Source: a virus. Taken from it: DNA of 37,150 nucleotides. Location: positions 1 through 37,150 of the IMG/VR virus record IMGVR_UViG_3300028596_000037. One strand, 5' to 3'. The position numbers and the translations under genes were made by a program. The notes under the pieces are model-generated. The model did not search any database. It was not told where the DNA came from and saw only the letters and a program-made list of their open reading frames with translations. Positions 2,502 to 9,347 of this stretch are shown in pieces. Positions within the stretch are counted from its first letter, which is position 1; each line of letters begins with the position of its first letter.

Positions 2502-3083
2502 ATGCACAGTTTTATCCTAAAACTGAACGCAGAGACCCGCGAAGAGCTCTATGCCGATATCGGCATAGAGTTTATGGGGTTCATCCTCATTGAGGCTATT
2601 CACAATATCCTCGTCGCAGGCCAACCTGGCGTCTTGGAGATCGAGGACGATCTCACACGTGAACACAAGACCAATGAATCACAGTTCGATGTTTCTGTGG
2701 ATTACCTCATCGACATTGTTCAGGAGTATAACGAAGCAAACGGCATTTTGCTGACTGACGAGTATTACCGCTTCAACTCCGACTACCACGATCAGTTTGC
2801 CACTAAGCTGGCCGACGCTATTGTTTCGATCGAAGAATCTAATGACTTCACCGAGATCATGGCATTGCAACCTACGTTCAGTGATCCCGAAATTGTGAAA
2901 GGCTTTAAGTTCACGGCCTATCATTACCCTGATCGTGTGTTGTTCTTGGTATACCCTGCTTCGAGCGCAGTGCGACAAGCTTCCCTGGCTGACCTGATCT
3001 TTGATCCACCAGGTACCAATGACCAGGAGCTTTCATTGCAACAGCAACTTGATAACTTCATGCGCACGTATAACAGCGATTGA
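2502..3083 (+). CDS. Acidic protein of unknown function, last gene of its cluster
   Basis: 193 residues, strongly acidic, no recognised domain. The N-terminal third contains a hydrophobic helix (residues ~20-40), followed by an Asp/Glu-rich stretch. A likely beta segment with F, Y and V residues lies near 140-155. The ribosome site before the ATG is weak (AAGGG at 2491-2495), so expression may depend on coupling to the gene upstream. A strong intrinsic terminator follows 14 bases after the stop, which ends the cluster that starts with the helicase. Confidence 0.75.
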   Translation: MHSFILKLNAETREELYADIGIEFMGFILIEAIHNILVAGQPGVLEIEDDLTREHKTNESQFDVSVDYLIDIVQEYNEANGILLTDEYYRFNSDYHDQFATKLADAIVSIEESNDFTEIMALQPTFSDPEIVKGFKFTAYHYPDRVLFLVYPASSAVRQASLADLIFDPPGTNDQELSLQQQLDNFMRTYNSD

Positions 3084-3084
3084 G

Positions 3085-3145
3085 CCCTAGATTTCTACTA
3101 ACCTGCCTCCGCAAGGAGGCAGGTTAGTATTAGGGTTTTTTTTTT
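3085..3145 (+). terminator. Intrinsic terminator with GCAA tetraloop
   Basis: A perfect 14-bp stem (3097-3110 with 3115-3128) closes on a GCAA loop, a stable GNRA type. CCCTA at 3085-3089 can extend the pairing with TAGGG at 3131-3135. Ten T residues follow (3136-3145). It ends the plus-strand cluster. The stem can also form in the RNA of the convergent minus-strand gene ending at 3150, but without a T tract on that side. Confidence 0.9.
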
Positions 3146-3149
3146 GCTT

Positions 3150-4454
3150 TTACTTGATAGCAGTCGCCAAGTTCATTCGGCCTGTCTTACTACCAGCGGT
3201 GTGAGCCGCCTTCATTCGACGCAGCATGGACTCAGTAGGCACACGTACTACTTCAGCACTCAGACGGTTGCCGTATTTACCCAAGCCGTTACCCGAGCAC
3301 ATCTGGCAATAGTTACCTTCGGCTGTAGCACAAAGGTCTACCGAACGTACCGTCAGGACTTTACCGATATTGGCTTTAGCCACTTCAGGGGTAATCAGTT
3401 CAGACACACCCTTCTCGTTGATGTAGTACATACCGATCCAACCCTTATGGGTTTGTTCCAGCATGTAAACAATCTCGCCGAGTTTGGTGTTGCAGTCGAT
3501 ATCAGCAATGCGACGACGCCCTACCAGCTTCAGGATGTCTTTAACCTGAGCACCACCCTCACCAGTTGCCATGGAACGGCTGTACGCACCCGCCACAGCG
3601 GTGTTGATGTAGGTAACCAGTTGTTCAGGATCTACACCCTCATCCAGAGAACGCGTCAAGCCTACCCAACCATCACCCGTCGGGTTCGGTTCGATACCGA
3701 AGGCGAGGAACATACGCTTCCGGGCGTTACTGATGAACTTGTCGTTGATGTAGAAATTAGCGCTAGGACCGCTCAGCTGTTCCTTACGGTCCATCTCCAC
3801 CAGCTCTTCGAGCATATTGGTGAAGGCTACTGGATCGTTTACCTTGCCATCGGCTTCCAGTTGCTTGAGGAGTTCTTCCTTACGTTTGAGGATGGTTGGG
3901 CTGAGGGACAGTGTATCCAACCCACCAGGCTTAACGAAGTAAGTCCCCAGGCCTTCCAGGAAGTAGCAGTGGCGGGTAAACTTCATGCAGTCGTCTACCG
4001 AGGCTTTCCCTTCAGGGACTTCTTGTCCTTCTTCCGGGTTATCCACCATCAAGTCTTTCAACAGACCCTGGATCAGATCCTTGGTGAAATCCTGGTTAAC
4101 ATACTGAACTTTGGCACCGAAGACTTCCCAGAACAGAATGATGTTAAACAACATCAGACCAAAGGTAGACCCGACTGCTTTACCCTGGAGGACTGGGTGG
4201 AAGTCTGCAGGGAACTCGTAGAAGTCATCCATCTCGAACAGAGGGCGTTCCACGTCCCCTTCAATGGATACCTTACCCCCATCGATGTTGGTGTAGTACA
4301 TGCCATCTTCTACCCACACCGCATAAGGGATGTTCTTGAACTGACCGCTGGAGTCTTCGTCTTCGAACTGAATCGAGATAATAGACTGCACAGCAGCTTT
4401 CTCGGCGTAACCTTGGTTGGCTAGCCAGTGTTTATAGAAAGTAAGTTTATTCAT
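3150..4454 (-). CDS. RNA polymerase beta' subunit, C-terminal part (multi-subunit phage RNAP)
   Basis: 434 residues matching the catalytic-centre end of bacterial beta'. A bridge-helix-like segment lies at ~280-315 and is followed by all four zinc ligands seen in E. coli beta': C321 (IDCNT, like DDCGT), then C375, C383 and C386 (YCQMCSGNGLG, like VCAHCYGRDLA). Residues 404-421 (RVPTESMLRRMKAAHTAG) resemble the first trigger-loop helix with its histidine, H418. phiKZ-type phages carry two such polymerases in several polypeptides, one packaged in the virion. Its position next to structural genes suggests the virion enzyme (phiKZ gp80-like), but that is inference. It ends 16 residues after the trigger histidine, so the rest of the trigger loop and the C-terminal part of beta' are absent here. 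Its start overlaps the upstream gene by eight bases. Confidence 0.8.
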   Translation of the reverse strand: MNKLTFYKHWLANQGYAEKAAVQSIISIQFEDEDSSGQFKNIPYAVWVEDGMYYTNIDGGKVSIEGDVERPLFEMDDFYEFPADFHPVLQGKAVGSTFGLMLFNIILFWEVFGAKVQYVNQDFTKDLIQGLLKDLMVDNPEEGQEVPEGKASVDDCMKFTRHCYFLEGLGTYFVKPGGLDTLSLSPTILKRKEELLKQLEADGKVNDPVAFTNMLEELVEMDRKEQLSGPSANFYINDKFISNARKRMFLAFGIEPNPTGDGWVGLTRSLDEGVDPEQLVTYINTAVAGAYSRSMATGEGGAQVKDILKLVGRRRIADIDCNTKLGEIVYMLEQTHKGWIGMYYINEKGVSELITPEVAKANIGKVLTVRSVDLCATAEGNYCQMCSGNGLGKYGNRLSAEVVRVPTESMLRRMKAAHTAGSKTGRMNLATAIK

Positions 4455-5452: not shown

Positions 5453-6238
5453 ATGGCTAACAAACAGCAAAGCATGCAAGCACGTAAAGCCCAACGCCAA
5501 AAGGCTAAAGCCAAGGGTCGTGCTGACAAAGCCAAGGGCGCTCAACGCCCAGCCACCGCACAACCTACTGGCTCCCAGCTCCAGTACCAGATCGCCACCA
5601 AGGGTATCATCGCTACTGCTCGCCGCTATAGAAAAGCCAAGCGTGCGAAAGACGCCCACAATGGCAAAGCACCGACCAACCTGGAAATCCTGCAGAGCCA
5701 GAGCCAGGCCATCGAAATGATGTGCCCAGTCCACGCCGGTATCGAAGTAGCGACCATTCTGGTAGCCGAAGGCAAACTGCAGCTGGAACAGGCTGACTAC
5801 GACGCCATCGCCAAGTTCGACGAAGCCATCGTCAAGATCGCTGAAGACATCCAGGCCCTGCAGATCCTCATCGAAGCCGAACAGACCTTCGAAGACTTCT
5901 GGGAACTGCATGTCGAGTACATCGACAAGCTGGCCGACATGTTCCAGTTCCGTATCCCGGAAATGATGGAAGTCATGCGTCCTCGTTCCCCGGTAATCAA
6001 CCAGTACGTCCAGGAACACACCCTGCCTGAAGAGAACGAAATGCAGTTCTCCATGCGCATCCACCACGAACGCCTCCAGCGCGTTGCGCCGAAGTACCGC
6101 ACCATCGCCCAGCCGGAAGTACCGGAAGATCTGGCGGAAGAAGCGGCTGAAGGCGAATTCATCGAAGCCGGTGAAGTCTCCATGGCTGAACTGCACCCGG
6201 CTACCGAACCCGCTCCTGTGATCAAAGACCTGAACTAA
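5453..6238 (+). CDS. Lys/Ala-rich helical protein, probable virion or assembly protein
   Basis: 261 residues in three parts. The first is a very basic, Lys/Arg/Ala/Gln-rich N-terminus (residues 1-75), likely disordered and able to bind nucleic acid. The second is a helical core (80-165) with little cysteine. The third is an acidic C-terminus from about 225 (Glu/Ala-rich). No family is recognised. Codons are strongly biased to C/G endings, as in the other well-expressed virion-type genes here. It lies 11 bases ahead of the cysteine-containing gene at 6250, and the two are surely co-expressed. A scaffold-like, tail-assembly or DNA-associated role is possible but unproven. Confidence 0.75.
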   Translation: MANKQQSMQARKAQRQKAKAKGRADKAKGAQRPATAQPTGSQLQYQIATKGIIATARRYRKAKRAKDAHNGKAPTNLEILQSQSQAIEMMCPVHAGIEVATILVAEGKLQLEQADYDAIAKFDEAIVKIAEDIQALQILIEAEQTFEDFWELHVEYIDKLADMFQFRIPEMMEVMRPRSPVINQYVQEHTLPEENEMQFSMRIHHERLQRVAPKYRTIAQPEVPEDLAEEAAEGEFIEAGEVSMAELHPATEPAPVIKDLN

Positions 6239-6249
6239 GGAATAAATAG

Positions 6250-8016
6250 ATGGAAGATATCCACCTGCCCAACGAAGACGCCAGCAAGGCTCCAGCCGAA
6301 GAACGTCTGGTTGTCGATGAGCCCAAAGGTATCCCCGTGCAAGAACCTGTCAAGCGCACCGCCAAGGTCAACGAGGTTCACACTCCGGCCAATACCACCA
6401 TGGCCATCCCGGTGCCGCCGCAGGCGACTATCGTTCGTGCCCTGACCGAAAAGGAAAAGAGTGATGGCTTCATCACCATCTTCCTGGGTAACAGCAAAGA
6501 GTCGCACGACCTGGCTAACCAGCTGCTGACCCCATACATCGAACTGCTCACCATCCGTCGTATGGTCGAAGCACAAGATGTGGAACCGTCGGTGCTGGCG
6601 AAGAAGGAAGAAGACTGGGCTCGTTACGTCGAAGAGAACTACCCAGGCAAGACCGTCGAAGAAATGACCGACTACGCAGCTTCGCTGATGGAGTTCAAGT
6701 CGGAACTGCTCGACGAGCTGCGTGTGCGCAGTAACGCTATCCGCGAAGAAGACATCTCCAACGTGTCCAACCGCGGTGTGTCGGGTACTGGTCACCTGAT
6801 CACCGGTGACATCGTCGGTCGTAAGCCTACTCGTTCGGTAGGTAAGGGCATGAAGTCTTCGGAAGTCATGCGTCGTAGCAGCATTGCTGCTGAAGACGGG
6901 GTACTGACCTACGACCTGGAGTTGCGTAACTCCTTCACCAAGATCACCTTCACCCGTCCGAACAAACTCGAGATGGGTAACATCATCAACGACATCCGCG
7001 CAACCATCAAAGGTTTTGTCCGTCAGGTGAACAACAACTCGGGCACCTTGGCCCGTGTTGCGGCAGCTCGAGTGATCTGGTCGTACATCGTCAAGAAGAT
7101 GACCTACTCCAGCGTCAACGACATTGCAGACTTCAGCCAGCTGACTGCGATCATTCGTTGGAGCGACATGGAGCACATCGCCATGGGTCTCCTGCATGCC
7201 TTCTCGCCGAAAAGCGTGAACATGCACCTGCGTTGCTTGTCGCCTAAGTGCGACTGGAACGAGTTCGCCCAGGTTGACCCGGAGCGCATGGTCCACTGCC
7301 GTCACCACCACACCACTGATGCAGAAGCAGCGGTGTATGCGAACATCTTCAACAACAAGGCCACCCTGTCCACCCAGGAAACCTTGGCGTTGATCAAGAA
7401 CGCAAACTTCGGCCTGGATTCTAACCGCGTCTACAACGAGAACAACTCCATCTACATGGAACTGGGCTCGCCGTCGCTGTCGGAAGCTTTCCAGACCTTC
7501 GACTACTTCGTTGGTCAGATCAACCCGAAACTGGGTGAACTGCGCAGCAAGGTCCTGGACCCGGAAGAGTTCGAGACCCAACGCAACATGCTGCTGCAAG
7601 GTGTAGGTGCTTCCGAGTACATGCACTGGATCTCCAACTACGTGTTGGTAGGTGAGCCGGGTAGCGATGAGAAAGACATCGCATTGGAGCGTTCGCAACA
7701 GGACGACCAGAACGATTACAACCAGGGTCTCCTGGACGTGATCAAGGACAGTCCGTTCTTCAACAAGCACTTGACCAAAGCGGTGTTCTCCAAGACGCCG
7801 TTCCTGTCGAAGACTTTCGTTGGTTTGCAGAACTTCGAATGTCCGAAGTGCAAGAAGAACATGGAAGAATTCCACGACAGTCAGCGTGTTCTGGAACGTA
7901 AGTTGGGCTACACCCCAATCGACCCGATCATGAGTTTTTTTATCCATATCCAGCTTCTGATGGTGGTGGACACCACGGAGGCCATGGAAGCACGGGTAGA
8001 AGCCCTCTCCGAATAG
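6250..8016 (+). CDS. Cysteine-motif (possible zinc) protein, zero-frame product of a candidate frameshift pair
   Basis: 588 residues. The N-terminus (1-60) is Pro/Val-rich and linker-like; 60-320 is mostly helical. Possible metal ligands are C329, C334 and C350 followed by HHH at 352-354, and a CPKC pair at 531-534. Such pairs recall the zinc-bearing baseplate-hub assembly proteins of T4-like phages, but the similarity is weak. The frame crosses seven T residues at 7935-7941 (codons AGT TTT TTT) and stops 24 residues later. The -1 frame is open across the same region and runs on to 8486, giving a possible 745-residue fusion. Codon choice after the T run is normal for this genome in the zero frame, so both products may be made. 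The function is unknown. Confidence 0.8.
   Translation: MEDIHLPNEDASKAPAEERLVVDEPKGIPVQEPVKRTAKVNEVHTPANTTMAIPVPPQATIVRALTEKEKSDGFITIFLGNSKESHDLANQLLTPYIELLTIRRMVEAQDVEPSVLAKKEEDWARYVEENYPGKTVEEMTDYAASLMEFKSELLDELRVRSNAIREEDISNVSNRGVSGTGHLITGDIVGRKPTRSVGKGMKSSEVMRRSSIAAEDGVLTYDLELRNSFTKITFTRPNKLEMGNIINDIRATIKGFVRQVNNNSGTLARVAAARVIWSYIVKKMTYSSVNDIADFSQLTAIIRWSDMEHIAMGLLHAFSPKSVNMHLRCLSPKCDWNEFAQVDPERMVHCRHHHTTDAEAAVYANIFNNKATLSTQETLALIKNANFGLDSNRVYNENNSIYMELGSPSLSEAFQTFDYFVGQINPKLGELRSKVLDPEEFETQRNMLLQGVGASEYMHWISNYVLVGEPGSDEKDIALERSQQDDQNDYNQGLLDVIKDSPFFNKHLTKAVFSKTPFLSKTFVGLQNFECPKCKKNMEEFHDSQRVLERKLGYTPIDPIMSFFIHIQLLMVVDTTEAMEARVEALSE
7935..7941 (+). other. Candidate -1 ribosomal frameshift site (T TTT TTT)
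   Basis: Zero-frame codons AGT TTT TTT (7933-7941) contain the canonical X XXY YYZ heptamer with all T. Slipping back one base after F564 continues as Y-P-Y-P-A-S in the frame that ends at 8486. The -1 frame has no stop between here and 8484, a run of 181 codons. A small stem (7963-7967 with 7972-7976) lies 21 bases downstream, farther than the usual stimulator. A one-base error in the T run would look the same. Confidence 0.5.
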
Positions 8017-8054
8017 AGCCAGTCGGCACAGACGGGAAGATCCAGTTCAGTCGG

Positions 8055-8486
8055 GTGCATGAAGGTGTGACACGGAGCCTGTTAGGTAAACCGATCGATC
8101 ACCTCACACCCGAGGCTCTCATGCTCAACGAATCGATGATGCATGATCTGAACATGGAGTATTACAACCCCAAGACCCGCACTCCGTTCTCTTCGATTGC
8201 ATACCACCCCGCTGAAAATGAGTTCTACCATCAGTGGTCGATTGAATCTGTTGGCGAGTACTACGGGTACCACAAACTGAGTGAAGTTATACCAGTGCGT
8301 GACTACCTGTTGCTCCCTAACTGCATTGTTGATGAATTCGTCAAGGCTGTGAGTAATGGCTTAGACAAACGCGACAAAGTAGAGAAGGAGCGACGACGCG
8401 AACAGAATCCTGGAGGCTTCAGCAAAGACCAATTGGAATTGCTTAAGGCTGCAGGACTGGATGTGGGTAAATTGGGTAAGCCTTGA
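8055..8486 (+). CDS. Continuation frame of the 6250 gene (or a separate small gene)
   Basis: From the GTG at 8055 this frame encodes 143 residues with a well-formed C-terminal domain: Tyr/His-rich in the middle and a basic helix near the end (KRDKVEKERRRE). No start is convincing. The GTG lacks a well-placed ribosome site, and the ATG at 8121 has only GAGG at 8111-8114. The frame is open upstream to the T run at 7935-7941 and reads through a Gly/His-rich linker. The simplest reading is that it is reached by a -1 frameshift from the 6250 gene, adding 181 residues after F564. It may otherwise start internally at 8121. Several rare codons (GGA, AGA, ATA, CGA) lie in the linker. No family is recognised. 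Confidence 0.65.
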   Translation: MHEGVTRSLLGKPIDHLTPEALMLNESMMHDLNMEYYNPKTRTPFSSIAYHPAENEFYHQWSIESVGEYYGYHKLSEVIPVRDYLLLPNCIVDEFVKAVSNGLDKRDKVEKERRREQNPGGFSKDQLELLKAAGLDVGKLGKP

Positions 8487-8524: not shown

Positions 8525-8579
8525 TCATCTTATGCTGATCAGCACTGATTTATTACGCGTACAGAAGAGGACTCCTCAG

Positions 8580-9347
8580 ATGGCCAAAGAACCTACCTCC
8601 CAGGAACTTCAGAAAACTGAAGGCCAGGAAAACACCAACACCGAAACCGCCAAGGATCCGATCGAGATCCCGAACGAAGCCGGTGAAACCAAACAGAAAG
8701 ACAACGGCGGTGAATACGTCGCCCCGACCACCCAGAACGTAGGCACCAACCTGGGTAACCTGTCGGTACCGGCTGCTGCTCCTGCTGCCAAGCCTACCGA
8801 ACCGGTCAAGATCAACACCCAGGGCGAGAACGGTACCAAGGACGAGGCTTCCTACGAGAAGACCCCTGACGTGGTAAACGTAGCGCAGATGATCAATGCC
8901 AAAGGCGACCTGACCACTGACGTCATCGCCGACCGCATTGCGCGCCACATGCTGTACCTGACCGACAAGCGTTCCTTCAAAGACGACAAGCAGCGTCTGC
9001 AGGAACAGGCTTCCTTCATGGAAACCGTCGGCAACTCGCTGCAGCTGGATTTCCCTCAGCACGCTCTGGTCACCGACCTGCTGCTGAACCAGATCCGCGA
9101 AAACCTGGAAGTGTTCGCCAGCGGTGACGCCTTCAAGTTCATGCGTGAGCTGGAGAAGATCCGTTACCCAATGGAATCGATCCGCTTCTACCAGCGGTAC
9201 ATCACGTACCTCACCAAGATCATCCAGCACTACAAGACCCCTGCCCGCCTCAAAACCCACGTCGACCTGGCGTATGTTGCTGACGGTCTGACTCGTGTAG
9301 CGAAGGAAAACATCCAACAGTACTACACCAAAGTCGCCAACCGTTAA
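8580..9347 (+). CDS. Helical protein with disordered N-terminus, probable virion protein
   Basis: 255 residues. Residues 1-100 are rich in Thr, Glu, Pro, Asn and Ala and look disordered. Residues 110-255 are amphipathic helices with regular Leu, Tyr and Arg. No family is recognised. The frame is open back to an ATG at 8532, but the ATG at 8580 has AAGAGGA at 8565-8571 with an eight-base gap, so 8580 is chosen. Codons are strongly C/G-ending, suggesting high expression. It lies ten bases before the inner-body-like gene at 9358, so the two are probably made together as virion components. Confidence 0.75.
   Translation: MAKEPTSQELQKTEGQENTNTETAKDPIEIPNEAGETKQKDNGGEYVAPTTQNVGTNLGNLSVPAAAPAAKPTEPVKINTQGENGTKDEASYEKTPDVVNVAQMINAKGDLTTDVIADRIARHMLYLTDKRSFKDDKQRLQEQASFMETVGNSLQLDFPQHALVTDLLLNQIRENLEVFASGDAFKFMRELEKIRYPMESIRFYQRYITYLTKIIQHYKTPARLKTHVDLAYVADGLTRVAKENIQQYYTKVANR

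Follow-up and report, generated by a model that had tools for sequence, protein, structure and literature searches.

The closest described systems are the tail assembly chaperone genes of phages lambda and P2, in which frameshifting yields the protein pairs G/GT and E/E+E′ respectively (Xu, Hendrix and Duda, 2004, as cited in PMC5009743 and PMC9024508). In GeneTack experiments a phage tail assembly chaperone cluster gave 7% frameshifting (PMC3711429), and among jumbo phages a frameshift-based tail chaperonin pair, gp181/gp182, has been described in phage G and was unseen in virion mass spectrometry (MS; PMC8570332). Here we analyse a gene of the jumbo-phage type in IMG/VR virus record IMGVR_UViG_3300028596_000037 (positions 1–37 150, the whole stretch being referred to as the window). 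This gene, at 6250–8016, carries a run of seven Ts near its 3′ end, and comparison with its relatives makes programmed −1 ribosomal frameshifting at this run very likely. The explanation is favoured because the phase of the run is conserved, the length of the zero-frame tail is conserved, constraint acts on both reading frames of the overlap and no start is conserved in the −1 frame.

The seven Ts occupy 7935–7941, where the zero frame reads ATG AGT TTT TTT ATC (7930–7944) and the slippery heptamer is T_TTT_TTT (all features of the locus lie on the + strand). The zero-frame open reading frame (ORF) comprises 588 codons and ends with TAG at 8014–8016, whereas the −1 frame (7935–8486, 183 codons counted from the slip site) stays open for 181 codons past the two slipped Phe codons, up to TGA at 8484–8486. 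Its peptide from the slip site begins FFYPYP, and the fusion would be 745 residues long with its junction at F564–Y565. The first-pass annotation, made from the sequence of the window, had reported the T7 heptamer, the zero-frame end at 8016, the open −1 frame and products of 588 and 745 residues, and the computed frames agree with it in each respect. The resemblance to P2, whose slip site is T_TTT_TTG, lies in the T-run heptamer. Within the window this is the sole intragenic T-run heptamer of the form X_XXY_YYZ, the other two runs of at least six Ts being intergenic. Across the 29 window genes Phe is encoded by TTC 382 times versus 100 times by TTT, and only one of 24 Phe–Phe dipeptides, the slip-site pair itself, is encoded by TTT TTT.

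The junction was read in 22 annotated genomes, in 30 IMG/VR loci (picked via the peptide TPIDP and so blind to the T run) and in six more distant phages (phiKZ, 201phi2-1, SPN3US, 2050HW, pPa_SNUABM_DT01 and Wellington), which together with the window collapse to 49 distinct sequences. TTTTTT[T/C/A] stands at the same place and in exact X_XXY_YYZ phase in 49/49 of these (22/22 annotated relatives, 30/30 IMG/VR loci and all six distant phages), the carriers including phiKZ (PHIKZ077), 201phi2-1 (gp136/gp135), EL (ORF047/048), OBP and SPN3US. The heptamer takes the form T7 in 26 distinct sequences, T6C in 22 and T6A in one, and the codon that ends in its first T, at the wobble position, is one of six (AGT, AAT, GCT, ACT, GTT and GGT). 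The slip heptamer exceeds chance expectation; its joint retention under each gene's codon usage comes to ∼1e-64, a value that ignores shared ancestry and is a rough index only. In each of the 49 the zero-frame tail is short and the open −1 frame long, the two measuring 22–28 and 162–185 codons respectively within the EL, OBP and Vibrio groups. One relative, Pseudomonas phage vB_PQ1, has many broken frames and duplicated stretches that make its gene calls unreliable; its T7 site is intact.

Besides proposing that homologues be compared, the first-pass annotation had offered a one-base sequencing error in the T run as its alternative. Such an error, whether of sequencing or assembly, within a single fused gene would fit the proneness of homopolymers to error and the unbroken order of domains across the two frames. 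The 49 distinct genomes, which many laboratories contributed, nevertheless all show the identical frame break at this position, with the T run kept throughout and the two frames never fused, and the zero-frame tail is conserved in both length and constraint. We consider this alternative excluded by the recurrence of the break in every independent genome checked, leaving it a negligible probability.

The 24-codon zero-frame tail (7942–8013) is also read in the −1 frame, and substitution rates by codon position, taken from 15 independent pairs, show that both readings serve protein. In zero-frame codons upstream of the overlap positions 1/2/3 change at about 0.2/0.1/0.44, whereas in the first 22 overlap codons they change at 0.13/0.13/0.19, the third-position value lying below every one of 20 000 resampled upstream windows. 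Past the zero-frame stop third-position periodicity resumes in the −1 frame. It is from the slowed third positions in the overlap together with this downstream periodicity that dual coding is deduced, and the zero-frame tail is under purifying constraint. In alignments of the −1 frame F1, F2, P4, P6 and L25 (counted from the slip site) show no variation in the EL, OBP and Vibrio groups, and its conservation therefore starts at the slip site. Close to the zero-frame stop there is in addition conservation at the nucleotide level, of GAAGCCCTCTC(C/G)GA just ahead of the stop in the EL-type group (7996–8016 in the window) and of AGAGGA...TCTTTC in the OBP-type group, which may reflect dual coding or an RNA element.

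The same alignments bear on whether the locus consists of two separate genes, the downstream frame having a start of its own that is used by re-initiation or coupling. Annotators do assign separate starts, and in the window a GTG is available at 8055, from which a mechanical ORF runs to 8486. The first-pass annotation had found no convincing start here, and indeed this GTG, the first possible one, has no Shine–Dalgarno match of the kind tested. Among relatives the position of the first possible −1 start varies between codons 6 and 87 and no Shine–Dalgarno-like match is conserved; conserved −1 residues lie upstream of most of these positions, in an overlap that is constrained in both frames. 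Nothing resembling a promoter was seen in the region. We therefore judge that the ORF at 8055–8486 is no independent gene and hold the two-gene arrangement to be very improbable.

On the frameshifting explanation most ribosomes would read through 6250–8016 and release the 588-residue protein. A fraction of them, holding tRNA-Phe in the P site as well as the A site at T_TTT_TTT, would slip back by one base, bypass the zero-frame stop and produce the 745-residue protein, in which residues 1–564 are common to the short form and are followed by a different domain of about 180 residues. The efficiency is probably a few per cent.

Some observations weigh against this. Neither a conserved downstream RNA structure nor an upstream Shine–Dalgarno stimulator was found at the slip site: RNAalifold gave zero pairs for the EL-type group and weak pairs only for the OBP-type group, and a hairpin in the window 7 nucleotides past the heptamer (z = −1.5, with 15/200 shuffles as stable) lacks significance and is unshared by relatives. 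Moreover, two further contigs related to 201phi2-1 (L103 and L104, site about 4362) have G_TTT_TTT instead, which spoils first-base re-pairing in the P site, despite −1 frames that are conserved (70–76% identical to that of 201phi2-1). These two contigs constitute a natural test of the need for P-site re-pairing. A search of Rfam gave no match of note at the slip region. Some bacterial frameshift sites work without a stimulatory element. With no supported stimulator the frequency of frameshifting is not predictable here.

The same observations favour the main rival, transcriptional slippage, in which the phage RNA polymerase would add a U at the T run so that some transcripts carry the fusion as a single uninterrupted frame. 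A run of six Ts is the core common to all genomes, the G_TTT_TTT contigs included, and the failure to find a conserved ribosomal stimulator points in the same direction, as does the possession by these phages of their own multisubunit polymerases (a beta subunit, phrog_2962, is encoded at 3150–4454). Six or seven Ts is, however, short for efficient polymerase slippage, and there has been no selection for a longer run, since Z is C in 22/49 and the run never reaches eight, whereas a conserved X_XXY_YYZ phase with Z free is what tandem tRNA slippage requires. We infer slippage by the ribosome, slippage by the polymerase being in our estimation unlikely.

Both parts of the putative fusion belong to families listed without function, the zero-frame protein to phrog_4585 (with counterparts PHIKZ077, EL ORF047 and 201phi2-1 gp136) and the −1 domain to phrog_19747 (counterparts EL ORF048 and 201phi2-1 gp135). 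The zero-frame protein has no Pfam match, and a ‘ZipA-like cell division protein’ label carried by some records is without Pfam support. Its AlphaFold2 model is of good quality (predicted local distance difference test score, pLDDT, 83.8; predicted template modelling score, pTM, 0.83), while that of the −1 domain is too poor for use (pLDDT 62). When the zero-frame model was compared by Foldseek with predicted viral proteins (BFVD), jumbo-phage relatives came first. Lower in the list stood two proteins named as T4-like baseplate hub assembly proteins, one with E 9.9e-4 and prob 1.00 and a second with prob 0.97, together with the ACP17 hub assembly chaperone at prob 0.82; for these hub-assembly matches the target template modelling score is 0.49 and the protein names are annotations. 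One relative is labelled gp26-like by its depositors. Four cysteines are invariant in the 49 sequences, Cys329 and Cys334 (codons within 7234–7251) and Cys531 and Cys534 (7840–7851), the latter forming a CPxC motif that is presumed to be the second half of a zinc site.

The notes of the 201phi2-1 record do not mark the zero-frame protein as found by MS, and it is absent from the MS-identified proteins of RisingSun lysate (PMC6034870, Table 4), as expected of an assembly factor. On the strength of fold likeness and probable absence from virions, a role in tail or baseplate-hub assembly is plausible, with a chance that we would put at about even. Several comparisons tell against it: hhalign comparison of profiles with T4 gp26/gp51 was not significant, Foldseek and VIA-align found nothing above noise in the PDB for the zero-frame protein (other domains may be under-tested, so that the missing match is no evidence of a new fold) and a sequence search of the PDB gave nothing significant. 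A search of the genome with PF12322 gave zero matches anywhere and is hence uninformative.

As with lambda G/GT and P2 E/E+E′, the jumbo-phage product is probably absent from virions, and by analogy with tail chaperones, which is plausible, the relative amounts of the short and long forms might matter for a G/GT-like assembly factor of the tail or baseplate hub. Unlike those chaperones the protein is much larger (588/745 residues) and without a Pfam match, and no tape-measure gene was recognized adjoining it, though one may have escaped recognition. The gene sits instead between the genes for virion RNA polymerase and DNA polymerase, its neighbours being phrog_28183, phrog_14374, phrog_21850, the RNA polymerase beta subunit and DNA polymerase. 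By description it can be likened to gp181/gp182 of phage G, also a frameshift-based chaperone pair of a jumbo phage that is not found by virion MS, which unlike the present gene lies in a tail cluster with a tape measure gene.

The remote fold similarity of the zero-frame protein is to the baseplate hub assembly proteins typified by T4 gp26/gp51 (PF12322, phrog_150), the BFVD match given above. Since sequence profiles miss these proteins the zero-frame protein was not filed in PF12322. T4 gp26 carries two pairs of conserved cysteines, as does the zero-frame protein, and the T4 proteins, gp26 being the shorter and gp51 the longer, are one family just as the short and long forms are here. Both match PF12322 (2803–4229 in the T4 sequence, L057) and are therefore paralogues of different length; gp51 has a further match at its C-terminal part, to phrog_634 (hub assembly catalyst). 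In T4 there are two genes on opposite strands, whereas the jumbo-phage pair apparently comes from one gene by frameshifting and could be its one-gene equivalent. A more speculative proposal, which we hold only tentatively, is that a single ancient −1 frameshift, on which every phiKZ-type jumbo phage depends, supplies two hub-assembly chaperone isoforms homologous to gp26/gp51, and that T4 swapped the frameshift pair for a gene duplication or the change ran the other way.

Frameshifting of this sort is a known mechanism, and its occurrence in this gene across phiKZ-type jumbo phages is unreported in the literature searched, subscription papers lying outside it. The records read here annotate the pair as two separate, mostly ‘hypothetical’ proteins, so that although phiKZ and its relatives have been intensely studied a conserved long isoform would be missing from annotations and, probably, from the databases against which proteomic data are searched. 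We know of no tail chaperone reported in nucleus-forming phages, for which the slip site offers a directly testable recoding event and the gene pair would be a first lead to baseplate assembly. The overlap also provides a clean case of dual coding for evolutionary study. The phage records matched by tblastn, 69–75 for the zero-frame protein and 48 for the −1 domain, were almost exclusively those of jumbo phages, and with PHIKZ077 as query and a loose threshold 236 records were obtained. No DNA-level relatives of the window were found in the phage collection, and a search of IMG/VR with a single window protein gave no matches whereas an alignment-based search succeeded.

Elsewhere at the locus, a Shine–Dalgarno-like AAGGAA (6237–6242) precedes the ATG at 6250. 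The mechanical ORF at 8532–9347 has no good ribosome-binding site at 8532, and the ATG at 8581, with AGAGGA upstream, is the likelier start. The two intergenic T runs are probably transcription terminators, one of ten Ts at 3136–3145 between the ends of 2502–3083 and the convergent 3150–4454, and one of nine at 26 764–26 772 after 25 405–26 703.
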